Source: an uncultured Bacteroidales bacterium
Lineage (GTDB): Bacteria; Bacteroidota; Bacteroidia; Bacteroidales; Bacteroidaceae
DNA: 55,689 bases
Direction: 5' to 3'
Assembly: GCA_902776455.1 (NCBI GenBank)
Contig: CACYQI010000013.1
Span: 1-55,689 of the forward strand
Part shown: positions 37 to 40,172 of the stretch, piece by piece
Layout of the letters: each line of letters opens with the position of its first letter
Position numbering within the stretch: the first letter of the stretch is position 1
Program-made: the position numbers and the translations under genes
Notes under the pieces: model-generated
The model's database searches: none
What the model saw: the letters and a program-made list of their open reading frames with translations, nothing else
Told to the model about the DNA's origin: nothing

Positions 37-99
37 TCCTACTGTAAAGAAGACAAATTATATAGAAGGGCAATAAAGGAAATGGGGAGAACACGACCC

Positions 100-222
100 C
101 TTCCAAACCCTTCGGGCCTCCGTCGCTTACACTCCCCAATTGCTCCGCTTTTAACGGGCAATTGCCCCGAGGGGAGGCTTCCTGCCGCGAAACTCTCCCC
201 CTCGGGGGAGATGGAGGGGGGT
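100..222. repeat. GC-rich dispersed repeat, left inverted copy
   Basis: This block includes the words CCAAACCCTTCGGGCCTCCG, CAATTGCTCCGC and CTCCCCCTCGGGGGAG. The same sequence appears in inverted orientation at about 55008-55230, where it is interrupted by roughly 110 bp containing a duplicated GAAGCCTCCCCTCGGGG stretch. Shorter relatives lie at 3003-3082, 9855-9890, 36910-36950 and 39660-39790, and one copy lies in frame inside the primase gene at about 4757-4876. It encodes no protein. The self-complementary CTCC...GGAG arms would fold into hairpins. Confidence 0.8.
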
Positions 223-256
223 CTTAAATGGTAAATGATTAAATGGTAAATGTGAG

Positions 257-2926
257 ATGATATTCTTCGGCAAAAAAGACAAGGAAGAGAGCAGCCGGCC
301 GGCCGAGACTGCACCTTCGGAAAGCACAGGCAACGAGCAGAATGCGTGGAAAGCAACGCCCCGACGCGACAGCCGCATACTGAACCCTACGCAGCTGCAA
401 CGGGTGAAGGACGCCAAGCGACTGGCTGAAACAAAGCTCCAAGGGCTGGAGGAGAGCCTCGGCCGCCTGCATGCACAGCAGCAATGGATTCGTCGCTACA
501 ACGAAACCAGCATGATACTGGAGCGCGAGAAGAAGCGGCTCTTCGAACTCGGCAAGCAGAAAGCAGTCATGGCCAAAGACGCAAGCATGCTCGAACGCTA
601 CGACCTCTTCGAAGGCATCCACGGCATCTATCAGAAGCTGGCTGTGGTGAAGGAACAGATGGACAGGGACAAGCGGGGACTGAGCCTCTTGGAACGCGAA
701 GCCGACGAGAACCGACAGAAGATGAGCGACCAGGAGAAACGGCAACAGCAGGCAAGCGAACAGTACAAGAACGCTACCGCCAACCTGCTCGATGCCTTCG
801 ACCACATCTGCAGCGCCCAGCAGCTGACTGGAGCCAACGAGACTCTCGCCACCGAGATAACCTTCCTGCTCGGCCTTACCAATAAGATAAAGGAAGAGAT
901 GGATGCTCTCCGTTCCATCATCGCAGAGAAAGAGAAAGAGACCGAAGCCCTGCAAGGCAAGCTGGACGGGCTTCGCTCCAAGCGGCAGAGCATGGAGATA
1001 CACGAAAACATGCTTCTCCACGGCGAAGCTGTGCTCCTGAAGCTCGGCACGCTGGAGGAAACAGAGAAGCTGCGAACCGAACTGCAACAGAAGAACCGGC
1101 AGACCATTCGGCGACAAAACGAACTGAACGAGATGCTGGGCAAAGCTTTTGCCCAATATCAGGAACTCATTTCGCAGTCCGAGACGGCAGAAGCCGAGCT
1201 GAGCATGCACCGCTCCTACATTCACGGCCAGGACGGTCTGATGCTTCAGGAACGCGCCTTGATGCTGAAGGGACGCAGCAGGCAGCTCCTCTCTGCCCTA
1301 TCCCTTTGGAAACGCATCAGCACAGGCTACGAGAGCATCGAAGAGAAAAGCCGACGAGTGACTGCCCTCCGACTCGACATCCAGCACCTCGAAGAGGGAG
1401 TGCGCCAGCTCGAAGCAGAAACAGGGAAGCAGATCCGGCTATGCAAGGAGAAGGAATACACCTATCTGCTGAGCAAGGGGCAGGACGTCATCCAGCTGCG
1501 TGCCGACCTTCGCGAAGGCGTCTCCTGCTCCGTCTGCGGCGCAACACACCATCCCTACCACAGCGACACGATGCTCGACCAAAGCAAACTCATCGGGCAG
1601 ATGAAGACCGACTACGAACTCCTTGCCACAGAGTCGAACACCAAGCGGCAGCAACTCGCCGAGATGCAGATGGAGCTTGCCAAGGCGCAAGGAAAGCTCA
1701 GTGCCGAGGAGGAAGCGCTCAACGCCATCCGCATACGCCAAAACGAGGATGTGCAGGAATGGAAACTCTATGCCGAACTCGACCAGACCTTTGCCGAATG
1801 CTCCGAGAGCACCAATCTCATGGCACGCACGGCTTTGCTCCGGCAGTTCATCGAAAACGTCAGCCGCGATGCCGAACAGGCTGAGAAAGAACTCGAGACA
1901 TTCACCTTCCACCAGAGCAGCATTGCCAAAATCAGCGAAGAGCTGCAAAAGCTGGAGCAGAAGAAGAGCGAAGTGAACGTCCGGCTGAACGAACTCAACA
2001 CGGGCCTGCAAGTGCTCAGCCGCGAAGCAGAACAGGTGGGCGCACGGCTCGACAGCGTCAACAAACGCTTCACAGGCATCTACGAGAACATGCAGCAAGC
2101 CATCACCATCAAGGACTGGTACACCATTTGGCAACGCTACCCCGAGCAGCTGTACGAACAGATTCAGAAGCTCAGCGCAGATTGGTTCGCCGTGAAGGAC
2201 GAGATAGCGGCAAAGCTGGCTGCACTCGAAGCGGAAAAAGCAAAGCTCGAAGGCATGAGGAACATGTTGCAGGCACTCTCACGCTCGTCCGCCATCATCG
2301 AAAAGCGAAGAGAGGAACTCGAAGGACACAAGGCCGAGAACCAGAAAGCATACCGGCAACTGATACCCGAACACGATGCGAAGAAGCTCTACCAAACGCA
2401 TTTGCAAAGCGTCAGGACATCGAGAGAACACTACGAGGAAGAACGCTCGCAAGCCGACAGCATACGCCACATGGGCGACACGATGCAAGGCCGCCACGAC
2501 TACTACAAGGAACACATCGGCAGGCTGGAAGGAGAACGCAGCACGCTGAACGAGAAGCTCGACCTCTGGATGCATGCCTTCAACCTCCAACATCCGCCTG
2601 TCAGACTGGGCGAACTCGACGAGGTCTTTGCCGACGGAAAGGACTGGAGCAAGATACGTAGCAACCTCAAACAGACGAACAACGACATATTGCTATGCCA
2701 AGCCAAAGTGGAGGACCTGAACAGCCGCATCATCGCCCTCGAAGCGGAAGACGGCCACCTGAGCCATCCCAATGCCGACATACAGGAGAGCATCGCAGCC
2801 AAACAGCAGTCGCTGACCAAGCAACGAGGCGAAACCATGATGCAAATAGCCAGACTCTCCGTGCAGATAGAGGACCACGAGAAAGCCCTCACCGCCTTGC
2901 GCAATTCCGCCGAACCAGAAAAATGA
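257..2926 (+). CDS. Large coiled-coil protein with a Rad50/SbcC-like zinc hook, no ATPase heads
   Basis: This 889-residue protein is almost entirely charged, heptad-like helix (runs rich in E, K, Q, R and L). Near its centre, at residues 424-427, a CSVC motif followed by GATHHPY resembles the CxxC zinc hook that dimerises Rad50 and SbcC. The position at 48 percent of the length fits two antiparallel coiled-coil arms. Unlike SbcC, neither end holds an ATPase lobe: I see no Walker A (GxxGxGKS), no LSGG signature and no Walker B. The N-terminus (MIFFGKKDKEE) is short and polar, with no signal peptide. A separate ATPase partner might lie upstream of the window. The start follows a repeat-derived leader with no clear Shine-Dalgarno. 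Coding is certain, hook homology likely, cellular role unknown. Confidence 0.8.
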   Translation: MIFFGKKDKEESSRPAETAPSESTGNEQNAWKATPRRDSRILNPTQLQRVKDAKRLAETKLQGLEESLGRLHAQQQWIRRYNETSMILEREKKRLFELGKQKAVMAKDASMLERYDLFEGIHGIYQKLAVVKEQMDRDKRGLSLLEREADENRQKMSDQEKRQQQASEQYKNATANLLDAFDHICSAQQLTGANETLATEITFLLGLTNKIKEEMDALRSIIAEKEKETEALQGKLDGLRSKRQSMEIHENMLLHGEAVLLKLGTLEETEKLRTELQQKNRQTIRRQNELNEMLGKAFAQYQELISQSETAEAELSMHRSYIHGQDGLMLQERALMLKGRSRQLLSALSLWKRISTGYESIEEKSRRVTALRLDIQHLEEGVRQLEAETGKQIRLCKEKEYTYLLSKGQDVIQLRADLREGVSCSVCGATHHPYHSDTMLDQSKLIGQMKTDYELLATESNTKRQQLAEMQMELAKAQGKLSAEEEALNAIRIRQNEDVQEWKLYAELDQTFAECSESTNLMARTALLRQFIENVSRDAEQAEKELETFTFHQSSIAKISEELQKLEQKKSEVNVRLNELNTGLQVLSREAEQVGARLDSVNKRFTGIYENMQQAITIKDWYTIWQRYPEQLYEQIQKLSADWFAVKDEIAAKLAALEAEKAKLEGMRNMLQALSRSSAIIEKRREELEGHKAENQKAYRQLIPEHDAKKLYQTHLQSVRTSREHYEEERSQADSIRHMGDTMQGRHDYYKEHIGRLEGERSTLNEKLDLWMHAFNLQHPPVRLGELDEVFADGKDWSKIRSNLKQTNNDILLCQAKVEDLNSRIIALEAEDGHLSHPNADIQESIAAKQQSLTKQRGETMMQIARLSVQIEDHEKALTALRNSAEPEK

Positions 2927-3002
2927 AATAATTTACAATTTGACAATGTACAATGTACAATTTATGTACAATTTAGTAATTTAGCCATTTACTTCCCCTT
3001 TC

Positions 3003-3082
3003 CTCCCTTCCCCCTCTCCCACGGGAGAGGGTTGGGGAGAGGCTTTTTCCCCCTCTCCCACGGGAGAGGGTTGGGGAGAGGC
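3003..3082. repeat. Tandem GC-rich CCCTCTCCC repeat
   Basis: Two direct copies of a ~36-bp unit (CCCCCTCTCCCACGGGAGAG then GGTTGGGGAGAGGCT) lie between the convergent coiled-coil and primase genes. Each unit holds a CTCTCCC/GGGAGAG hairpin. The same unit lies after the secreted protease at 9855-9890 and near 55110-55140. Confidence 0.75.
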
Positions 3083-3099
3083 TGGCAAGGGCCGTGTTT

Positions 3100-3121
3100 G
3101 CGTAACTGTTACACGTTACGC
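3100..3121. repeat. Palindromic GTAAC/GTTAC motif, left copy
   Basis: The 20-bp word CGTAACTGTTACACGTTACG at 3101-3120 overlaps the stop codon of the primase gene. It differs at one position from 7041-7060 and is related to the palindrome at 6923-6940. Together these sites bound the primase half of the accessory cassette. Candidate roles are an attachment or recombination site, or an iteron-like binding site for a cassette protein. Confidence 0.6.
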
Positions 3122-5416
3122 TGCGATTTTCTTGAAGAGGCCGTCACGGAGGCGTTCCAGTTTGCCGTCGTCAACATATCGGGAAAGCTGGGTGCGGACG
3201 TTTGCACTCTGGCCACGCGCTATCCTTGCTTGGATGAACTGCTCGGTGGTGAACACTTCGGGCATCTCCTGAAGCAGGGGCAGGACGGTCTTGCGGCGGT
3301 CAAGTTGCTGTGTGAGAAGCCTTTCGGACTCCTTCATGTCCGCTGCCACACGGGAGGAGAAAATGTAGCAGATGTTGTAATAGACGTAGTCGCCAAGCCA
3401 ACGGATGTACTGGAGCATCTCGGGCTGTTCCTCGCCGTAGAGGGCCACGAAGGGAATGGCTGCCCGCATCATGTGCTGACCCACGCGGTGGCTGAGGTCG
3501 GCTTCTGCTTCGGAGATGAGCCCGTTGTTGTACTTCTCTTCCAAGTCGGCATACCACTGACGGACAACTTCCTGCGTCTTGGGCATTTCGAGCTTGAGTG
3601 TGTCTTCGCCCAAGGAAAGGTTCTTCTGCCAGAGGCTCATGATGAGGCCGTCGAGTTCAGCCTGTTCGTCGGTAGAGAGGGGTGTGATGCGTGGCGGCAG
3701 GAAGGTGCGTTTCTGACGGGGGATGATGAGGGGCATGAACCGTTGCATCATGCCGTTCTCGGTGTCGCTGAAGAGTCGTGTGAGCACGGCTTTTGGAGTG
3801 CCGCAGAGCAGGACAGAGGCGTTGAGGCGTGTCTGGGTGGAGCAGGAGCTGTCGCTGAGGTAGTACTGACGGGCCATCTCTCCATCCCAAGCCTTGCGCA
3901 GCATTGAGGAGATGTCGGAGAACTGAGCGCGTGAAGCGTTCACCAGGTCGTCGGCTTCAGGCCATCGGCATAGTATCATGCCATTCTCGCCGAGGTTGGT
4001 CTGGAGGTCGAGCATCGAGGTCTTGCTCACAGTCTCGCAGATGTAGAGCCTGGGTTTGTAGCGTGGGGGCTTGTCCTTGGCATTGGCCATCTTATCGCGA
4101 AGCTGCTGGTTCTCACGCACTTTTGCCCATTCCTGTGCATCGCTTGCCTGAAGGGTGTGGAGGGTGATGTGGTCGAGCAGGTGGGTGAAGAAGTACTTGC
4201 CCGAGCCGCTTGATGCTGCCACGGAAGCAAAGAGTCCTGGGCCAATGGTGCGCCCGTCGAGGTAGTCGGTGCGGAAGTGGCTGGCATGGGGTGCGAGGCC
4301 TACGCTGCCTGTCAGGGCGAGCATGGGGTGGTACTGCTCGGGGTAGGCTTTGACGGGGAGGAGGATGAGGCGAGGCAGCTTCTCGGGCATCTCAGGAGGA
4401 CAGTAACTCTCTATGAATCTGTCGAATGCCTCTTCTTCGGCTGCTTTTGCGTCCATTTGTACCTGAGCGTTAATTTCGCGCAAGCTTTTGGGCATCCAGC
4501 CCTTGTCGGCAGAATAGTTCTTGAAGAAGTAGTCCACGAGCTTGCGGCAATCCTCCGTCTGCGAGTAGTTGGGCAGCCGCTGCCTGATGACGGCTTCGAG
4601 CTGCTCTCGGCTCATCAGCTTGGCCACACCCACGGAGAGGACTGCCATCAGGTTGCTGTGCCAGTTGTGGACGCCCCAGATGTCCATTTCGTCGGGCTTG
4701 AGGCCTGCCTGCTCCACGCAGAGGTCGAAGGCATGGAGGGACTCCTTGGTGGCCTCAAAAGCCTCCCCTGCAGCCTCCCCTGCAGCCTCCCCCGTCCCCT
4801 CCAAAGGAGGGGTGAACGGCGCTGCGGACGTGGCAGCGGCAATGTCTCCTCCCCCTCGGGGGAGGTTGGGAGAGGGGTCTTGGAGGCAGGGAGAGTTGTA
4901 GAACAGCCTGTCGTCGAGGTAGATGAGGTCGTCGGGGCTGTCGGTGGTGGTGAAGAACACGCGGGTGATGTCCTTGGCTGCTTTGTCGAACTCCACGCCG
5001 AGCAGGTTCGAAGCCCAGCGAAGGTTCTCTTCCTGAGTGAGTTGCGGGTGGCGGAGGAAAACAAGGTGGTAGCCTGCACCACGCGCAGAGCGTTCAAGCA
5101 TCAGCAGCCCCAGCTCGTCCTTCTTGGCGAGGATGCGTTCCTTCACCTCCTGCATCTTCTCTGGCGCAATGTGGTCGATGTCCATGCCCACGGAATTGCT
5201 GACGCTTGTTGCACCCTTCAGGGTTCCGTCCTCGTTGGGAAGGCAGGAGTAGTTGAACTGCGTAAGGAGCGTTTTCTTGTCCTCTTCGCCCTTGCGAACA
5301 GCGTCTGCGAGGATGTGCTGGGAGCGAGTGCCACGAATGCTTATATACTCCTCTCGGGAATTAACAGGGCGGCACACTTTGTGCCCACCCTGTAGAACAA
5401 CTTGATAACAACTCAT
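3116..5416 (-). CDS. BT4734-like primase N-domain fused to DUF3987 helicase-like domain
   Basis: The 766-residue protein has the two-part plan of Bacteroidota VirE-N/DUF3987 proteins. Residues 1-175 carry candidate primase-polymerase motifs: GMDIDHI (Asp79, Asp81), GAGYHLVF (His117) and a later KDITR (Asp149). The C-terminal part holds a P-loop variant, SSGSGKY (404-408, Tyr where Ser/Thr is usual), and conserved-looking TENGMMQRF, fitting a RecA-like DUF3987 ATPase. Residues about 181-220 (PSPNLPRGGG...FTPPLEG) are low complexity and are the translation of a dispersed GC-rich repeat. The start overlaps the stop of the upstream small gene as TAATG, implying translational coupling. Likely role: priming or replication of an accessory or phage-like element. 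No integrase is nearby. Confidence 0.85.
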   Translation of the reverse strand: MSCYQVVLQGGHKVCRPVNSREEYISIRGTRSQHILADAVRKGEEDKKTLLTQFNYSCLPNEDGTLKGATSVSNSVGMDIDHIAPEKMQEVKERILAKKDELGLLMLERSARGAGYHLVFLRHPQLTQEENLRWASNLLGVEFDKAAKDITRVFFTTTDSPDDLIYLDDRLFYNSPCLQDPSPNLPRGGGDIAAATSAAPFTPPLEGTGEAAGEAAGEAFEATKESLHAFDLCVEQAGLKPDEMDIWGVHNWHSNLMAVLSVGVAKLMSREQLEAVIRQRLPNYSQTEDCRKLVDYFFKNYSADKGWMPKSLREINAQVQMDAKAAEEEAFDRFIESYCPPEMPEKLPRLILLPVKAYPEQYHPMLALTGSVGLAPHASHFRTDYLDGRTIGPGLFASVAASSGSGKYFFTHLLDHITLHTLQASDAQEWAKVRENQQLRDKMANAKDKPPRYKPRLYICETVSKTSMLDLQTNLGENGMILCRWPEADDLVNASRAQFSDISSMLRKAWDGEMARQYYLSDSSCSTQTRLNASVLLCGTPKAVLTRLFSDTENGMMQRFMPLIIPRQKRTFLPPRITPLSTDEQAELDGLIMSLWQKNLSLGEDTLKLEMPKTQEVVRQWYADLEEKYNNGLISEAEADLSHRVGQHMMRAAIPFVALYGEEQPEMLQYIRWLGDYVYYNICYIFSSRVAADMKESERLLTQQLDRRKTVLPLLQEMPEVFTTEQFIQARIARGQSANVRTQLSRYVDDGKLERLRDGLFKKIAA
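4757..4876 (-). repeat. GC-rich dispersed repeat captured in frame in the primase
   Basis: About 120 bp, a multiple of three, of CCTCCCC/GGGGGAGG sequence matches intergenic copies at 100-222 and 55008-55230 in its words (CTCCCCCTCGGGGGAGG, CCCCTCCAAAGGAGGGG). A triplicated CCTCCCCTGCAG unit adds GEAAGEAAGEA. It separates the primase-like and helicase-like domains, so the protein could tolerate it as a linker. Confidence 0.7.
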
Positions 5417-5775
5417 TAGGCAACCTCCGCTTCGTAGATGTATGTTCTAAGTGCCGAGATAGCCTCCAGGCTCTCGCTGGACACAATAGCCATGGGATGA
5501 CTCTCCCAATCGGGGATGCGGATGGTAAGCAGGTAATCACCTGCCTGAGTCTTGGTCAGGCGGCCATGAGGCAGCAGCGTTATCAATTCTGCTCTGCTTC
5601 TGCTCCAGCTGCGCGGCTGGAACTCGAAGGAACCATCGGTCAACTGTTGGGCTGTGCCGTTGCGCTTGAAGGCTTCCAGCTGCCCCATTTGTGGCAAAAT
5701 GGGATGGAACGAAAATCTGTTACTCTCTGAAAATTGAGCACTTCCGTGCAAATTTACATTTGAAATTTGATTCAT
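5416..5775 (-). CDS. Small hypothetical protein of the primase operon
   Basis: This 119-residue soluble protein is not a family I recognise. It contains RSWSRSRAELITLLPHGR and a C-terminal part with alternating hydrophobics (YLLTIRIPDWE, AIVSSESLEAI). It sits between the putative OB-fold protein (7-bp gap) and the primase (one-base overlap, TAATG), so the three are almost certainly co-translated. The tight coupling suggests a partner or regulator of the primase. No signal peptide or membrane segment is visible. Coding is supported by its position and the precise overlap. Confidence 0.7.
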   Translation of the reverse strand: MNQISNVNLHGSAQFSESNRFSFHPILPQMGQLEAFKRNGTAQQLTDGSFEFQPRSWSRSRAELITLLPHGRLTKTQAGDYLLTIRIPDWESHPMAIVSSESLEAISALRTYIYEAEVA

Positions 5776-5782
5776 AGCTTAT

Positions 5783-6049
5783 TTAATTTACATTTTTTAA
5801 GGATGTTACTCTAATCTCATTCTTTATCTTGCCGTTTGGCAGCAGTTTTGTGAAGAACTGAAGGTCGCATTCCAGCACATCGCCCACATTAACATTATAG
5901 GCTTCAATGGTTTGCGCGATGGCAGAGATATAACCGCTGCCGTCAACGAACTCCAGAAGGAGTTCCATAAGTGAGTATTCAACACCTGTTGTCTTACTTG
6001 TGCCGTTTATGGTGGGGCCGATTTTTTTTACTAAAAGTTTTTGTGTCAT
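5783..6049 (-). CDS. Small OB-fold-like protein, possible ssDNA-binding partner of the primase
   Basis: This 88-residue protein starts MTQKLLVKKIG. An upstream in-frame ATG at 6106 exists, but its extra residues look non-conserved. The pattern GTSKTTGVEYSLMELLLEF, then NVGDVLECDLQFF, then GKIKNEIRVTSL resembles small Bacteroidota OB-fold proteins such as DUF3127: a Gly-rich turn, strands, 'VGD' and a closing strand. This is a pattern-level resemblance only. A single-strand-binding function would fit its place at the head of a primase operon. The upstream region is AT-rich with no strong Shine-Dalgarno, usual in this phylum. Confidence 0.65.
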   Translation of the reverse strand: MTQKLLVKKIGPTINGTSKTTGVEYSLMELLLEFVDGSGYISAIAQTIEAYNVNVGDVLECDLQFFTKLLPNGKIKNEIRVTSLKNVN

Positions 6050-6296
6050 TTTAATTGAATTATTTATGTTAAACATTCTTTTAAGTTCCGCTGCGCTTCC
6101 GCCCATACCTTATATTTATATATGCCCGGGCAGGCTTGGCCAAAGGCTTATGGAACTTTTCCGAGTGCAAAGTTACGGCAATTTATTCACACACAAAGAA
6201 AAGGGGACTATAATAAAAACACAAAACCCCGTAAGTCAACAACTTACAGGGATAGAGGGGATTTTGGCAGGGGACAAAAAGGGGACAACGAAAGTC

Positions 6297-6884
6297 CTAG
6301 AGAGGGACATCCAAGAAATAGAAGGATGCTGTTAGGTCGGGAGTGGGTTTCAACTTGCTTTGGTGGTAGCTTTCAATGCACTCACATTTAACAATGTCGC
6401 AAAAATTCCTATACCATCCTATAAAAGTTTTATACTCAGACTTAATAAAATATTTGCAATTGTATATTTCAGAGGCAAGCACAGCAAAGTCCTTGGAAAT
6501 ATGTTCATTTTTCACCCAATTATCCAATGCTTCGCAGTTACGCACGTTAAAGTGGCGATTGAAACAATTGTGCAGACGTTCGAAGTCAATCTGCCTGTCA
6601 GAGCAAGCCTCATCACGCTTGTCTGAGAGATTTTGGGCTTTTATGTCTGCTCTGAGGCGTTCAATAGCCTCTTTTACTTTATCAGAGGGTGGGTCGTAAA
6701 TTCCCTGACCAAACATTGCATTTATCCATTCTAACAGTTGTTTCTTTTTTTCTTTTGTGCCATATTGAATACACACGTCAATTTCTTTTATGAGGACTTC
6801 ATCCGATGTAGCCTCTTTACCGCCAGCAAATGAAATGAATGCCCATGTATTTTTTCTTTCTTGTGTTTTATCTTCTTTTTTCAT
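6297..6884 (-). CDS. Hypothetical AT-rich accessory protein
   Basis: The 195-residue protein starts MKKEDKTQERKNTW; a further in-frame ATG nine codons upstream lies in an AT-rich run and is less likely. It is rich in Lys, Glu, Cys and aromatics (CQ-, CKYF-, CDIVKCECIESYHQ-type stretches near the C-terminus), looks mostly helical and has no signal or membrane segment. I do not recognise the family. Its DNA is clearly more AT-rich than neighbouring core genes, pointing to a different origin. About 250 bp separate it from the OB-fold gene, so it may be its own transcription unit. It lies between two of the GTAAC/GTTAC palindromes. Confidence 0.65.
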   Translation of the reverse strand: MKKEDKTQERKNTWAFISFAGGKEATSDEVLIKEIDVCIQYGTKEKKKQLLEWINAMFGQGIYDPPSDKVKEAIERLRADIKAQNLSDKRDEACSDRQIDFERLHNCFNRHFNVRNCEALDNWVKNEHISKDFAVLASEIYNCKYFIKSEYKTFIGWYRNFCDIVKCECIESYHQSKLKPTPDLTASFYFLDVPL

Positions 6885-6920
6885 AATAATATAAATATTA
6901 ATATAAATCATCCTTCTCTC

Positions 6921-6946
6921 TGCGCGTTACGCGTAACGCGTAACAT
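6921..6946. repeat. Palindromic GTAAC/GTTAC motif, middle copy
   Basis: CGCGTTACGCGTAACGCG at 6923-6940 is an 18-bp perfect palindrome, followed by another TAAC. It lies directly upstream of the AT-rich hypothetical gene and could be its operator or one of a set of iteron-like sites, with copies at 3101-3120 and 7041-7060. Confidence 0.6.
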
Positions 6947-7038
6947 ATTTTTAAAAAGGCCCTCCCCTTCACTTTTTTCAGGTCTATTATTATATATATA
7001 TAATAATAGAATTTCAAGCCCGTAGTAGTGTGTGTGTT

Positions 7039-7060
7039 CGCGTAACTGTTACGCGTTACG
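7039..7060. repeat. Palindromic GTAAC/GTTAC motif, right copy
   Basis: CGCGTAAC-T-GTTACGCG (7039-7055) is a perfect palindrome, and the run 7041-7060 matches 3101-3120 at 19 of 20 bases in direct orientation. It lies just beyond the stop codon of the small HTH gene. The two near-identical copies enclose about 3.9 kb. Confidence 0.6.
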
Positions 7061-7072
7061 CCCCCCACCCCC

Positions 7073-7264
7073 TCAGGCAGCCGCAGGGTAGTCAATGCCA
7101 TATTCGCGGCAAATCCACTCCACCGCTTTCGGTGGGAGCATCTTTGCTGAGGGCTTAACTCCCAAGCCAGCCAACTCTCTCTGCTTACTATTTAGCCAGC
7201 GGTAAAAGGTTGTGTAACTCACTCCCGCCGCGTCGGCCAACTCATATTTGTATGCGCTTTTCAT
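7073..7264 (-). CDS. DUF4248-like small helix-turn-helix protein
   Basis: This 63-residue protein starts MKSAYKYELADAAGVS and continues YTTFYRWLNSK...LPPKAVEWICREYGI. The ELADAAGVSYTTFYRWL stretch is a convincing helix-turn-helix, and the whole pattern matches DUF4248-type proteins found beside VirE-N/DUF3987 primases in Bacteroidota. GAGGAC directly precedes the chosen ATG; another in-frame ATG lies three codons upstream. It is probably a DNA-binding regulator of the cassette. It is transcribed away from the HU-like gene, and the gap between them holds candidate divergent promoters. Binding to the GTAAC/GTTAC palindromes is a testable guess. Confidence 0.7.
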   Translation of the reverse strand: MKSAYKYELADAAGVSYTTFYRWLNSKQRELAGLGVKPSAKMLPPKAVEWICREYGIDYPAAA

Positions 7265-7308
7265 AGTCCTCATTTTTGCTACAAAATTACAAAAAAAACT
7301 CAAATATG

Positions 7309-7316
7309 CAAATTTA
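7309..7316 (-). promoter_or_regulatory. Candidate -7 box for the DUF4248-like gene
   Basis: On the minus strand this reads TAAATTTG, matching TAnnTTTG, about 45 bases upstream of the start codon. No well-spaced TTTG -33 box is clear. Confidence 0.4.
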
Positions 7317-7348
7317 TCTTGTCAAATCTTTTCAATTCTTTGCAAATC

Positions 7349-7381
7349 TTTGCAACGCCCATCGCCAATGTCGTAACTTTG
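7349..7381 (+). promoter_or_regulatory. Candidate Bacteroidota promoter for the HU-HIG operon
   Basis: TTTG at 7349-7352 and TAACTTTG at 7374-7381 are separated by 21 bp, close to the phylum consensus. It would give the HU gene an unusually long (~400-base) leader. Confidence 0.5.
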
Positions 7382-7785
7382 CAACGTGAACGCCACAGAC
7401 ACTCCACGGAGATTTAGCGAAACCTCAATGAAGAAAGAGCAAAACCTGCAAGGAGAATAAAACAAACATCTAAAACCACGAAAAACACAGAAAACTATGA
7501 ATTATGAATTGATATAGGACCACGGATTTAACGGATAACTACCGCACAAATAATTATGAATTATGAATTAAGAATTATGAATTGATATAGGACCACGGAT
7601 TAAACGGATTTAACGGATAACATTACAGGGCGTAGCATTTCTGTGATTTCCGTGTTTTCCGTGTGAGATACTAATCTTCGCGTGAGATACTAATCTTCGC
7701 GTGAGATATAAACCCAACCTTAAAAACAACCAAACCTTAATCTTTAATCTTTAATCTTTAATCTTAAAATTTTAATTTTACCACC
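7382..7785. repeat. Repeat-filled leader between the HTH and HU genes
   Basis: This ~400-bp stretch holds no gene. It contains one isolated CTCCACGGAG (7396-7405), two partial copies of the 'accacggatt...aacggat' element seen in tandem at 41 kb (7510-7625), three direct copies of a 19-bp word, CTTCGCGTGAGATACTAAT (about 7657-7710), and a CTTTAAT run (7737-7765). If transcribed from the promoter at 7349-7381, all of it would be 5' UTR of the HU-HIG gene. Confidence 0.7.
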
Positions 7786-8247
7786 ATGATTAACTACAGT
7801 ATCGCAATTATGGGCACCAAGCCCGGAACTAAGAAGGCCGACATCTTAGAGACCAAGGCCTATGGCGTGACCCAGATGCAGGACAAGATGGACCTTGATG
7901 GTCTCGCTCAGCACATGAGCGACCACAACAGCCCCTTCTCCAAAGGTGTCATCAAGGGCATCCTCACCGATGCAGTCTCTTGCATCCGCCACCTTCTCCT
8001 CGAAGGCAAGAAAGTAGGCCTCGGCGACATGGGCGAGTTCCACACCGAAATCGCCTGCGAAGGTGCCGCCACTCCCGACGCTTTCACCGCCTCGAACATC
8101 AAGAAGGTGAATGTCCGCTGGACTCCCGGCAAGCAGTTCAAGAACCTCCGCGACGTGGCTAACTTCAAGCTCGTGCCCAACAAGAAAGCACAGGCCGAAG
8201 CCATCGAGGAAATCAAGAACGAGGAAACCATCCACGGCCTTGAGTAA
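7786..8247 (+). CDS. HU-HIG family DNA-binding protein
   Basis: The 153-residue protein begins MINYSIAIMGTKPG. It has the Bacteroidota HU-HIG layout: a non-canonical N-terminal strand region, then an HU/IHF fold (LDGLAQHMSDHNSPFSKGVIKGILTDAV, VGLGDMGEFHTEI) and a charged tail (KAQAEAIEEIKNEE). Such proteins differ from canonical HU (about 90 residues) and are typical of the VirE-N / DUF4248 / lysin-or-P5 / smalltalk cassette. It probably bends or coats DNA of the cassette rather than serving as the main nucleoid protein. The P5-like reading frame begins 2 bp after its stop, so it heads a four-gene rightward operon. The start codon is preceded by TTTTACCACC. Confidence 0.88.
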   Translation: MINYSIAIMGTKPGTKKADILETKAYGVTQMQDKMDLDGLAQHMSDHNSPFSKGVIKGILTDAVSCIRHLLLEGKKVGLGDMGEFHTEIACEGAATPDAFTASNIKKVNVRWTPGKQFKNLRDVANFKLVPNKKAQAEAIEEIKNEETIHGLE

Positions 8248-8249
8248 CC

Positions 8250-8638
8250 ATGACACGAGGTGAACGCAACAACAACCCGCTGAACATTCGGCGGAGGGCG
8301 AAATAGTAGCACCCATCGAAGACAAGCAATTCGTGCAGTTTGCATCCCTATCTTGGGGCCTCCGCGCCGCCTTTTGCATCCTCCGAACTTACCGCGACAA
8401 ATACCAAGCCGTATGCATAGAAGACATAATTACCCGCTGGGCACCGCCAACAGAAAACGACACCCGAAAGTACATCTGCAATGTATGCAGGCTAACAGGC
8501 TTCGGAGGAAAAGAAAGGCTAACAGAAAAAGACTGGCCGCGGCTCGTCGGAGCAATGGCATTTATCGAAAGCGGACTGCTGCTCAGCCCAGAGACAATAA
8601 ACAAAGGTTATTCACTTTTCAAAAACTTAGAGCCATGA
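8250..8638 (+). pseudogene. Structural protein P5-like gene with a frameshift
   Basis: From ATG 8250 the frame reads MTRGERNNNPLNIRRRAK and stops at 8304. This is the hallmark start of the P5-like proteins that follow HU genes in Bacteroidota. The rest continues in another frame from about 8297 (EDKQFVQFASLSWGLRAAF) to the TGA at 8636-8638, through IITRWAPPTENDTRKYI, LTGFGG and LVGAMAFIESG. Together about 129 residues, the expected size. One missing base (or two extra) near 8290-8303 explains the break. The downstream part is intact with no further stops, so this is a recent lesion, a sequencing error or, less likely, programmed frameshifting; no strong slippery heptamer is seen. The family is phage-lysin- or spike-like in context; exact function unproven. 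Confidence 0.75.
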
Positions 8639-8727
8639 CACAAGAATCGAAAAACAAATGGTCGGTAATTATCAACGCCGTTCTCACCACCATTACTGCC
8701 ATTCTGTCGGCCTTCGGGCTGGCATGA
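8635..8727 (+). CDS. Smalltalk-type 30-residue protein
   Basis: The frame MTQESKNKWSVIINAVLTTI... ends in LSAFGLA, giving a 30-residue peptide with a charged N-terminus and one hydrophobic helix. Size, composition and position (after HU and P5-like genes) match the 'smalltalk' micropeptides of Bacteroidota. Its ATG overlaps the TGA of the P5-like frame (ATGA) and its own TGA overlaps the ATG of the next gene (ATGA), so the three are translationally coupled. The function of smalltalk peptides is unknown; a membrane-inserted signal or holin-like role are options. Confidence 0.8.
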   Translation: MTQESKNKWSVIINAVLTTITAILSAFGLA

Positions 8728-8918
8728 TTGAGAAACTTTCAGCCGCCCTGCTCCTGCTCTTTGGGGCAGTGGTGGCTCTCATTAGCCTCTTCATGCCGCC
8801 AGAAGGTGAGATTGACGGCAGCGTCCTGATGCTCTTCGCGCAAATCCTCGTCTATGCAGGCAGCATCTTCGGAGTGAAAATCTACATCAAAGACCTAATC
8901 AAGCGAGCAAACAAATAA
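8724..8918 (+). CDS. Small two-helix membrane protein, holin-like
   Basis: This 64-residue protein starts MIEKLSAALLLLFGAVVALI. It has two predicted membrane helices (about residues 5-24 and 34-53) joined by MPPEGEIDGS, and a basic tail, KIYIKDLIKRANK. The topology resembles small phage holins. It is the last gene of the HU/P5/smalltalk operon, overlapping the preceding gene by four bases. With a lysin- or spike-like partner upstream, a holin-type or membrane-anchor role is plausible but unproven. Confidence 0.72.
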   Translation: MIEKLSAALLLLFGAVVALISLFMPPEGEIDGSVLMLFAQILVYAGSIFGVKIYIKDLIKRANK

Positions 8919-8932
8919 AAGTAAGAAAATGC

Positions 8933-8963
8933 TTTGAAGTTTGCCCGCTAATTCGTACCTTTG
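8933..8963 (+). promoter_or_regulatory. Bacteroidota promoter for the secreted protease
   Basis: TTTG (8933-8936), a 19-bp spacer and TACCTTTG (8956-8963) are a near-perfect match to the phylum's housekeeping promoter, about 73 bases before the start codon. Confidence 0.75.
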
Positions 8964-9036
8964 CAGCCGAATTGAATGGAAAAGACAAGGTTTCACCGAC
9001 AAAACAGCATCAACAACACACAAAAAAAACAGAGAC

Positions 9037-9852
9037 ATGAAACGTACACTTGCATGCATCATGGCCGCAGCTTTCGCCGTCGGCATTCAGGCACAGGCCA
9101 TCTACAAGGCCACAAAGTATCACGCTCCCATCAAAGTGGAGAAGAAATGGAAGGGCTACAACCCAGGCGATGTTGAATTCCACGACGAGGCTCCCGAATC
9201 GGAAGGCTCGAAAATCTACCACAGCATCATCCCCAACCCTGCTCCCTACATTCAGGAGAATGCCCTCCGCGTGCTCCAGACGCTCTACTACGGCCCCAAC
9301 GACCCCAACGTGCCTCGCCTCAAGCGCATTGTCTACACCATCAAGGACTACAACGGCATCAGCGAGAAATATGGCAGCGGCGACTATGTTGGCATCCGCT
9401 ACAGCACAAACTGGATAGAGCGTTGCTTTGCCGGCAACGACACTCTTCGTCTTGACTACGAGACGCGCGGCGTGCTCTACCACGAACTGACCCACGCCTA
9501 TCAGCTCTCGCCCGAAGGATGCGGCGAGTATGACGGAAAGAGCGAATACTGGCTCTTCATCGAAGGACTGGCCGATGCCGTCCGCGTGGCTTGCGGATGC
9601 TTCGACCAAGACTTTCAGGGCAAGGACCGCACCCGTGGCGACTCGTGGCGCAAGGGCTACCGCGTGACGGGCTACTTCCTCTATTGGCTCATGCTCAACA
9701 AGGACAAGGACTTCCTGCGAAAGTTCAACCGCTCGGCCGTAGAGCTCAAGCCCTGGTCGTGGGACAAGGCCATGAAGCACATCCTCGGCGACAAGCCCGA
9801 GAATACCACCGATGCCCTCTGGCAGGAATACATGAAGGCCGTGGGAGAGTAA
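9037..9852 (+). CDS. Secreted Basic Secretory Protein-family metalloprotease-like protein
   Basis: The 271-residue protein starts MKRTLACIMAAAFAVGIQAQA, a clean signal peptide cut after AQA. A YHELTHAYQ motif (His149, Glu150, His153) is a zinc-binding HExxH, followed by FIEGLADAVRVACG, the arrangement of the plant Basic Secretory Protein family (PF04450-like) found in bacterial exoproteins. The rest (KGYRVTGYFLYWL, NTTDALWQEY) fits the same fold. It should be exported to the periplasm or beyond as a putative peptidase; its substrate is unknown. It is monocistronic with its own promoter, and a GC-rich hairpin repeat follows the stop codon by 3 bp and may act as terminator. Confidence 0.85.
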   Translation: MKRTLACIMAAAFAVGIQAQAIYKATKYHAPIKVEKKWKGYNPGDVEFHDEAPESEGSKIYHSIIPNPAPYIQENALRVLQTLYYGPNDPNVPRLKRIVYTIKDYNGISEKYGSGDYVGIRYSTNWIERCFAGNDTLRLDYETRGVLYHELTHAYQLSPEGCGEYDGKSEYWLFIEGLADAVRVACGCFDQDFQGKDRTRGDSWRKGYRVTGYFLYWLMLNKDKDFLRKFNRSAVELKPWSWDKAMKHILGDKPENTTDALWQEYMKAVGE

Positions 9853-9854
9853 AA

Positions 9855-10009
9855 GCCTCTCCCCAACCCTCTCCCGTGGGAGAGGGGGAAAGTAAATGGC
9901 TAAATTACTAAATTGTACATAAATTGTACATTGTACATTGTTAAATTGTACATTAGTTAAATCGTAAATAAATAGTAAATCGTAAATAGTCAAATCGTAA
10001 ATAAACAAG
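9855..10009. repeat. Repeat block before queC
   Basis: A GC-rich CCTCTCCCC/GGGAGAGGGGG unit (9855-9890) is followed by AT-rich words of the TAAATTGTACAT and AAATAGTAAATCGTAAAT families. The final words form the queC leader, ending AAACAAG before the ATG, almost as in front of mmdA. Confidence 0.65.
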
Positions 10010-39861: not shown

Positions 39862-40172
39862 CGGACGATGCCGCGTGGGATGTTTTCCAATACTCCGTGG
39901 AGAGTTGGCCAACTCTCCACGGAGAGTCGAGCGAAACTCCACGTTGTCTTGCCCCTCTTTCCGTGCCGTTTTTGCCCCGAAAGTTTGTTCTGTTTAACGA
40001 TATTGCATGCTGTTTCGACACTTTCTTAACTTTGCTTCCAAAAATCCGCCGTAGTAACTCATTGATTATCAGCAGCAATTAAAAATAAGCCCATTTCCTG
40101 CCTTCGGTGGACAAAAGTGCCGCAGAGACGAAAAGAATGCCTTAAATCGCGTTGGGATGCGAAAAGTTTTGA
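39862..40172 (+). repeat. Dispersed ~310-bp element with 32-bp palindrome, copy 1
   Basis: It holds a perfect 32-bp palindrome (39893-39924, half-site CTCCGTGGAGAGTTGG) built from the CTCCACGGAG word, a CTCCACGTTG unit, TAACTTTG (40027-40034), and a conserved end (CATTGATTATCAGC...AATAAGCCCATTTCC...GTGGACAAAAGTGCC...GCGAAAAGTTTTGACAG). A second copy with roughly 85 percent identity over its right part lies at 48268-48586. No credible gene is inside. Confidence 0.8.

Follow-up and report, generated by a model that had tools for sequence, protein, structure and literature searches.

A candidate P4-like replicative element with matched iteron arrays in the chromosome of an uncultured Bacteroidales bacterium

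The window, i.e., the whole 55,689-nucleotide stretch of DNA analyzed here, carries a cassette of two divergent operons that is probably an integrated P4-like replicative element, either satellite-like or domesticated. The control region between the operons is most readily interpreted as a replication origin, to which a second site at the 3′ end of the primase gene corresponds. In the sequences compared, the primase motifs are intact and the ori-like site is accompanied by a matching primase-end array within elements. The source genome contains two insertions of this kind. The one in the window is likely to represent an accessory genetic element that resides in the chromosome and is built around a P4-like replicon. 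An earlier note on this DNA had described a two-sided set of genes sharing a control region; the observation itself is confirmed, and the sharing holds, while the shared region is now interpreted as an origin and the site at the primase end is an addition to that description. Its interpretation is partly supported, the suggested phage-satellite remnant being close to the reading preferred here.

Insertion and gene content

The gene to the left of the cassette is present in 108 genomes, and 20 stretches were fetched at the window site. The two flanking genes are directly adjacent in 16 of these, the cassette is present in one, and the second flank is missing in three. Judged from these sites, the cassette is an insertion. 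The name SbcC-like for the gene at 257-2926 was dropped because no Pfam family was matched at E ≤ 1e-5.

The leftward operon encodes a fusion of an AEP primase and a DUF3987-type helicase, a coupled small protein and an OB-fold protein, and the open reading frames (ORFs) lie where the earlier note had placed them. The 766-aa fusion protein (3116-5416, minus strand) had been named BT4734/DUF3987. The AEP part of this name stands, as the BT4734-like motifs hhhDhD, sxH and hD are all present and residues D79, D81, H117 and D149 are invariant across the sequences of 12 relatives. In contrast, PF08800 remains below its cutoff (E = 0.0035; 17.9 bits against 22.4), and the AAA+ (DUF3987-type) helicase assignment is made only via a 26%-identical protein in the same genome. 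The structural model is closest to MCM helicases, with a weak match (TMq 0.25; pLDDT 72.9). The primase family is reportedly treated in a 2005 paper. P119 (119 aa; 5416-5775, minus strand), to which the primase start is indeed coupled as TAATG, has no family match and belongs to one of three mutually exclusive small-protein types seen ahead of the primase (49 of 80 loci). The 107-aa protein (5783-6106, minus strand) was modelled by AlphaFold2 as the expected OB-like barrel with five strands (pLDDT 82.7), and the top Foldseek matches are SSB and PriB (best SsbA, E = 1.1e-3; none ≤0.001). A 204-aa ORF (6297-6911, minus strand), missing from the earlier list, is part of the cassette set and possibly cargo; it has no family match above cutoff and a partial relative in 2 of 120 other genomes of the genus. 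The small HTH protein (7073-7303, minus strand) has weak HTH matches, but its DUF4248-like label is retained only through a relative (L049), which matches DUF4248 at E = 1.5e-4, below cutoff, while the protein itself has no DUF4248 match.

The rightward operon encodes a HU-HIG DNA-binding protein (7786-8247, plus strand; PF18291, E = 5.1e-18), a P5-type endolysin (8250-8638, plus strand), smalltalk (8635-8727, plus strand; 30 aa; NF033879, E = 2.8e-6) and a 64-aa membrane protein (8724-8918, plus strand). The HU-HIG and smalltalk matches exceed their cutoffs, and both ATGA overlaps reported before are present. The P5-like gene belongs to the endolysin family as proposed, but it is broken here: it starts at 8250 and stops at 8304-8306, and the rest (8333-8638) continues in another frame. 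The second piece matches phrog_873 endolysin (E = 2.2e-19), the family profile matches PDB 7q47 Endolysin (E = 1.1e-21), and the gene is open in two relatives within the same genome. Because the endolysin is broken, the window copy of the element may be decaying or domesticated. Smalltalk has one hydrophobic stretch and may be holin-like; in 10 of 30 P5 loci, P5 is followed by a comparable small hydrophobic ORF. Iterative P5 and QLW profiles cross-match, so P5 counts were taken from other searches. The 64-aa protein shows the two predicted hydrophobic stretches by eye, matches phrog_8278 (unknown function; E = 7.6e-5) and is 100% identical in L165.

In line with the earlier note, profile searches of the cassette ORFs gave no integrase, capsid or terminase family over cutoff and no portal gene; two terminase-small-subunit profiles match the HTH protein weakly (E = 0.018 and E = 0.043). 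Neither integrase nor relaxase was found in the cassette ORFs or in the 10 neighbouring ORFs scanned. Screens of 80 loci for integrase and for amidase, each a weak test with a single seed, both gave 0.

Origin-like sites and their pairing in relatives

In the divergent control region, a perfect AT-rich palindrome separates one iteron array from a second, inverted one. The iteron clusters at 6924-6944 and 7034-7061 form the ori-like arms, and the palindrome (6983-7010; 14-nt arms) forms the ori-like centre. The iterons recur 3.9 kb away at the primase stop codon in a crr-like array of GTTACGC-type heptamers (3094-3121). This array and the right arm are two copies of a 28-bp direct repeat with 26/28 identical positions, against at most 22/28 for the best 28-bp repeat in 60 Markov shuffles of 2500-9700. 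Palindromes in 40 Markov shuffles of the window had arms of at most 12 nt, against 14 nt in the control region. In the 3.39-Mb assembly, GTTACGCGTTACGC (≤1 mismatch) is confined to the control region and the primase stop. A counterpart of the primase-end array is present in L081 and L071.

The palindrome alone was rejected as a marker of the element, a longer perfect palindrome with 16-nt arms being located at 39893; contig ends were observed near palindromes and are at most a possible sign of circles. The empty sites lack the entire cassette, which gives no support to excision of only the 3.94-kb primase unit bounded by the direct repeats. After the P5 operon, the window has no iteron array, and a scan match beyond it falls on a common intergenic repeat. 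The PINSR repeat belongs to P. intermedia according to the accessible part of PMC4755523.

Different elements carry different iterons, which are matched between the two sites of each element. Using the primase end as a probe, a direct array with an inverted array after it was detected in 22 of 80 loci, against 4 of 222 gene ends of other kinds (Fisher p = 1.1e-10); 44 of the 80 contigs end within 9.9 kb upstream. Counting upstream arrays only, the pattern occurs in 21/80 loci; the opposite order occurs in 5/80, and foreign primase-end probes gave 6/160. Judged by position, the array pairs in L077, L086 and L135 resemble repeats of another type. A single further array in any orientation is weakly enriched (38/80 loci versus 29/118 controls). 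Matches between ori arm and primase end were compared within and between 17 elements, 16 of which were drawn from the 80 loci where the pattern had been noticed, giving p = 3.3e-5 for the left and p = 3.7e-6 for the right arm; the own-versus-foreign comparison of inverted arms gave p = 7e-9 over 16 elements. In 11 of the 17 elements, the own pair of ori and primase end has the top rank on one side or both. It is not first in L079, L081, L083, L086, L099 and L110, the L081 iteron being common to two others.

The second cassette, at G000:C24 in the same genome, is outside the set used to find the pattern and has the same layout with another iteron. Among 29 relatives' loci, surveyed out of 95 genomes with the flanking gene, the flanks are directly adjacent in 27, separated by 1 kb in one, and without the second gene in one. 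Arrays of CACCAACAC flank an AT-rich stretch, past the DUF3987 stop and on the far side of the P5 operon, with one other occurrence in the genome. They score 36 and 31, whereas 80 foreign ends reach no more than 12 and 14. The AT stretch is not a perfect palindrome (the palindrome scan found none in L008). These arrays are positioned some 290-410 bp inside the flanking genes and are candidate element ends at most; iteron arrays as exact ends were rejected, as the C24 arrays sit inside the junctions.

Distribution and modularity

Relatives of the primase at E ≤ 0.001 are present in 124 of 301 genomes of the bacterial family, and 321 stretches with such relatives were confirmed in the genome collection. 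They were found in 1 of 50,697 phage records (an unverified match), in 1 of 2.9 million viral contigs scanned by two peptide patterns only, and in 0 of 72,556 plasmid records. The near-absence from viral collections would also fit a purely chromosomal role. Cultured strains that carry relatives include Prevotella communis E15-14 (L137) and P. ruminicola KHT3 (L090).

The gene families are repeatedly associated, as the earlier note had it. In addition to C24, a similar divergent set occurs at the same site as that of the window in L081/L165, and parts of it occur in L072, L084 and L149. Conserved gene order had been proposed as a check: recurrence exceeds chance, but the two sides also occur apart. 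HU-P5-smalltalk is also found in stretches without the primase, and other primases carry their own P5, M15 or DUF5675 gene. The complete set is therefore one way of combining two modules.

The boldest lead comes from dispersed ori-like units that lack a primase. In one relative, the genome G152, four places carry a unit of about 160 bp; one of them has the primase, and the other three have none in the 18 kb examined. Five of the six unit pairs are 87.6-94% identical, and the sixth is 78% identical over a longer alignment. Arrays resembling the primase end are present elsewhere too, in one case 8 kb from such a unit and separated from it by unrelated genes. Elements of this sort might form a new Bacteroidales class that multiplies and moves without an integrase, the AEP primase-helicase acting on its own iteron/palindrome sites to replicate the element and copy it into new places and mobilizing, in trans, primase-less units that consist of the ori-like site with or without cargo, but this proposal is quite unlikely to hold.

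Proposed function and alternative explanations

As a P4-like replicon, the cassette would operate as follows. The primase-helicase would bind both iteron arrays through its winged-helix-like C-terminal end, melt the AT palindrome and prime DNA there, and the OB protein would coat or load single strands. The DUF4248-like HTH and HU-HIG proteins may act as regulators of the origin region and of the divergent promoters. A companion gene in related elements would supply a peptidoglycan hydrolase, joined in some of them by a small hydrophobic protein that may act as a holin. Once induced, such an element could thus copy its DNA and release it, perhaps in helper phage particles.

The iterons could also be operators and terminators, by which HTH or HU-HIG controls the divergent operons and the primase-end array serves as a terminator or attenuation site. 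The arrays sit at promoter and terminator positions, those of L072 and G152:C46 precede hairpin-like sequence, and the HTH gene abuts the ori-like site. This explanation is unlikely, however, since an initiator better accounts for a second array kilobases away in a preferred orientation and for the AT palindrome flanked by inverted arms, and the window type of HTH is within range in only 3/80 loci (that of L072 sits just outside). It is somewhat unlikely that the HU-P5-smalltalk and primase units are together by chance and do not act jointly. Each is found without the other, the degree of identity to L165 varies among the parts of the cassette, and HU is near only 10/80 primases (a raw count uncorrected for HU density); on the other hand, HU is divergent in 8 of these 10, and C24 and L072 have matching iteron arrays beyond the HU side and at the primase end.

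A decaying prophage that lost its integrase and structural genes would account for the phage-type endolysin and for the Rha/KilAC and S24 regulators near relatives. It is very unlikely, as primase relatives are nearly missing from the phage, viral-contig and plasmid records searched and the compact layout recurs in many genomes. Highly improbable is a defence module in which the primase-helicase senses or copies invading DNA while the endolysin and small membrane proteins kill the infected cell. Restriction-type cargo occurs in some relatives (HsdR in L072; a C5-methyltransferase-like cluster, typed by eye, in 9/80 loci), and the HU-HIG family is said in a 2017 paper to have a conflict role. 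Nevertheless, PADLOC models gave no clear match to the cassette (best PrimPol, E = 1.6e-4; the rest weaker), the endolysin is broken in the window, and the origin-like sites are left unexplained. The stand-alone defence module and the DNA-release or uptake device suggested earlier are not directly supported; restriction-type genes are cargo in some relatives, with none in the window.

If the relatives are replicons as preferred here, they would constitute an unseen layer of satellite-like elements with restriction-type and lysis-type genes. The matched site pairs make the replicon idea directly testable and offer a route to find elements by their DNA sites when an integrase is absent.

Comparison with known systems

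The layout is undescribed among the literature matches listed, which mostly leave out subscription papers, and in the accessible parts of PMC5862659, PMC10434189, PMC10803314, PMC7145576, PMC4234260, PMC4755523 and PMC8628076. BT4734-like/DUF3987 proteins are predicted helicases of mobile elements and share AEP motifs and a DUF3987-type helicase with the window protein; ori/crr-like sites and a HU-P5-smalltalk partner are absent from the account in the accessible part of PMC5862659. According to the portion of PMC4234260 available, plasmid pRN1 encodes an AEP primase-helicase with a C-terminal winged helix (ORF904) and requires a site 3′ of its gene, but this site is a 100-nt stem-loop without iterons, and pRN1 is a free archaeal plasmid. 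The PICMI satellites of Vibrionaceae, as described in the accessible part of PMC10803314, are about 6 kb (prototype 6,110 bp), have a DUF3987-type primase in the search model and a small AlpA regulator, and carry restriction systems as cargo. They also have an integrase and 17-bp att-like direct repeats; integrase, AlpA and such repeats were not found in the window, which has only the primase of the integrase-AlpA-primase set.

Satellite P4 (X51522) differs in its proteins. P4 alpha is of the Toprim/D5 type (Zn_Ribbon_Prim, Toprim_3, D5_N, Pox_D5), none of which the AEP/DUF3987-type window primase matches in profile searches. No cassette ORF matches the integrase, psu, delta or sid of P4 in such searches, and lysis-type genes are carried in their place. 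The perfect AT palindrome between inverted arms is also unlike P4. Nevertheless, both have one large primase-helicase (777 aa in P4, 766 aa here). In the P4 record, crr directly follows the alpha 3′ end and ori lies beside the AlpA gene, both with type-1 repeats; ori is about 4.5 kb from crr and adjoins a small HTH gene, and the operons are divergent, similar to the window, where ori-like and crr-like sites have common repeats and the latter follows the primase gene. P4-like elements are never found in plasmids and are little related to phages, according to the part of PMC8628076 available. The control region and the primase-end array are the ori and crr layout of satellite P4, with unrelated proteins.

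Gene content of the cassette

The window (C13, one of the 94 contigs of a 3.39-Mb draft genome) carries two divergent gene sets, bounded by a gene for an 889-aa protein (257-2926) and one for a BSP-family peptidase, and the extent of the cassette put forward in an earlier note (3100-8918) proved correct. The minus strand carries a small HTH gene and a 204-aa ORF, together with genes for proteins of 107, 119 (P119) and 766 aa; the plus strand carries genes for HU-HIG, a P5-type endolysin, smalltalk and a membrane protein of 64 aa. The 766-aa protein has the three AEP primase motifs as given in PMC5862659, and their catalytic residues are invariant among 12 relatives. Its BT4734-like_N Pfam score is under the cutoff, and its C-terminal half shows 26% identity to a DUF3987-matching protein of the same genome. 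The predicted structure (pLDDT 72.9) appears most similar to MCM helicases, with a best E of 9e-6 but a TMq of 0.25. For the 107-aa protein, an OB-like barrel is predicted, and SSB and PriB head the matches (best E=1.1e-3). HU-HIG and smalltalk both score above their family cutoffs.

Matches to the P5 family profile include a solved endolysin (E=1.1e-21) and a large phage protein, Gp29. P5 relatives are present in 729 phage records, the best being Bacteroides and Phocaeicola phages, several of which have a holin annotation adjoining the match; in phage BI-TP1, the holin gene is overlapped by the endolysin gene. The P5 gene of the window is broken, with a start at 8250, a stop at 8304-8306 and the remainder open in a different frame (8333-8638), and two other P5 genes of the genome are open. 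A third HU-HIG and P5 pair of this genome lies on contig C3 (L007 6253-7249), and no primase, HTH or OB gene was found beside it.

Putative replication sites

The entry point to the sites was a 28-bp direct repeat (3094-3121 and 7034-7061, identity 26/28), compared with a maximum of 22/28 in 60 Markov shuffles. The repeat is built of GTTACGC-type heptamers, and GTTACGCGTTACGC with at most one mismatch has five overlapping matches genome-wide, all in three places of the window cassette; the reversed pattern, used as a control, gave zero matches in the genome. Two of these iteron clusters lie on either side of a perfect AT palindrome (6983-7010) with 14-nt arms, and the third is at the primase stop codon. 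The longest arms in 40 shuffles of the window were 12 nt, and a longer palindrome occurs elsewhere in the window, at 39893. Counterparts of the clusters and of the palindrome are present in L081, the window-site cassette of a relative, and in L071. An intergenic repeat, CCCTCTCCCACGGGAGAGGGTTGGGGAGAGGCT, forms two tandem copies adjoining the primase end (3008-3083), with a similar stretch within the primase gene (4843-4879) and another past the peptidase gene (about 9853-9886).

Generality among primase relatives

A scan of the genome collection with two peptide patterns yielded 321 stretches encoding a primase relative, of which the best 80 were kept. A 7-mer occurs at least three times within 130 bp at the primase end in 36/80 loci, compared with 58/581 other gene ends. 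AT palindromes are denser within 8 kb upstream of the primases (15 in 456 kb, probably including two unrelated ones) than farther out (3 in 534 kb, two of them just past 8 kb beside such arrays; 79 loci). In L071, L090, L094, L096, L106, L109 and L110, the sequence ends less than 1 kb from the AT palindrome.

The iteron sequence varies between elements. Across 17 elements, the palindrome arm matches its own primase end better than foreign ends (p=3.3e-5 left, 3.7e-6 right), and in 16 elements the arms match mutually as inverted copies (p=7e-9). The own pair is top-ranked on at least one side in 11/17 elements and on neither side in L079, L081, L083, L086, L099 and L110. With the primase end as a probe, a direct and then inverted array was found in 22/80 loci compared with 4/222 other gene ends (Fisher p=1.1e-10); 44/80 contigs stop within 9.9 kb upstream of the primase. 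Restricted to the upstream side, the count is 21/80, compared with 5/80 for the opposite order and 6/160 for foreign probes; any single further array is only weakly enriched (38/80 vs 29/118). Judged by position, the array pairs of L077, L086 and L135 resemble repeats of another kind.

The second cassette, on contig C24 of the same genome, is a case outside the discovery set, and its sites were found by inspecting the places where the layout rule predicts them. Its primase is split (216 and 580 aa), and it contains no GTTACGC array. Arrays of the CACCAACAC type flank an AT-rich stretch, free of a perfect palindrome, between HU and OB; one also follows the DUF3987 stop, and a further inverted array lies past the P5 operon. 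The array scores are 36 and 31, compared with maxima of 12 and 14 for 80 foreign ends. The sole other CACCAACAC array genome-wide is at C10:27664-27690 (L264 about 7560-7800), after the apparent end of an HTH gene and before an AT-rich stretch; judged by eye, it is a possible relic of a cassette.

G152, the genome of a relative, contains a roughly 160-bp ori-like unit at four sites, one of them with a primase. One primase-less copy precedes a pair of C5-methyltransferase-like genes; a second lies 8 kb from a primase-end-like array. The iteron core with one mismatch gave 34 matches vs 11 for the reversed control; as it has chance matches at this level, exact matches and longer alignments alone count. 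Copies of the unit or the array on contigs C8, C34, C40 and C46 (L222, L223, L224, L257, L258) are in some cases beside C5-methyltransferase-like or ATPase genes, and these stretches contain no primase relative. The primase-less units could be non-autonomous derivatives, and are a loose end that is possibly the most interesting lead.

Insertion, mosaicism and partner genes

The window cassette is an insertion. Of 121 genus genomes, 108 have the left flanking gene; in 20 stretches around it, picked mostly by identity and contig extent beyond the gene, the peptidase gene follows directly in 16 (at most 350 bp between ORFs) and is absent from three, and the cassette is present in one (L165, to judge from its length the contig that also gave L081). 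At the C24 site, the gap is closed in relatives: the flanking genes are directly adjacent in 27 of 29 loci examined (the gene is present in 95 genomes), and of the other two, one has them 1 kb apart and one lacks the second gene. Identity between the window and L165 is 100% for the membrane protein, 93% for smalltalk, 88% for the primase, 74% for the P5 piece, 57% for HTH, 55% for HU and 36% for P119; the OB protein and the 204-aa ORF have no match in L165, and the flanking genes show 70% and 88%. By these identities, the cassette is a mosaic. A 131-bp stretch (window 95-225, L165 3202-3332) is 99% identical, compared with only 70-88% for the flanking genes, and may be a repeat that moved recently.

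In 46/80 loci, the primase has a member of one of three hydrolase-type clusters nearby, with a single representative of each cluster checked (P5 in 21, peptidase M15 in 14 and DUF5675 in 14, with 3 overlaps). DUF5675, a family of unassigned function, is hydrolase-like as judged by position. A Rha/KilAC regulator cluster is near the primase in 27/80 loci, and 9/80 have a cluster classed by eye as C5-methyltransferase-like; L072 encodes an HsdR-type protein. In 10/80 loci (raw count), HU-HIG is found between -8 and +4 kb of the primase, and it is divergent in 8/10; HU-P5-smalltalk is also seen in stretches without a primase. Directly 3' of the primase end, many of the 80 loci (e.g., L103, L109 and L137) encode a family of about 125 aa (ECFVQLW...LERTRQLL), which has no Pfam match.

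Comparison with known systems

Among 72,556 plasmid records the window primase has no match, and among 50,697 phage records it has one. The phage-record match is an unverified 4-kb scaffold (L066, MT839699.1, 4086 bp) from human faecal samples, where the genes follow the same order: OB, small protein, primase, iterons, DUF5675 and the beginning of an amidase-like gene. IMG/VR gave one match, whose neighbour genes look chromosomal. According to PMC10803314, the search model for PICMI satellites includes a DUF3987-type primase, and these satellites measure about 6 kb and carry restriction systems; they also have an integrase, a gene not found in the cassette. In pRN1, which has an AEP primase-helicase, a site 3' of its gene is required, according to PMC4234260. 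From its sequence, the cassette is read as an accessory element of the chromosome whose replicon layout is P4-like, and its replication, mobility and satellite behaviour remain putative. The P4 record places crr (4291-4590) after the 3' end of alpha (777 aa). The ori site (9086-9809) is some 4.5 kb away from crr, next to a small AlpA gene and with a divergent operon, and type-1 repeats are present in both crr and ori. P4 and the cassette have the same site layout, whereas their protein families differ.
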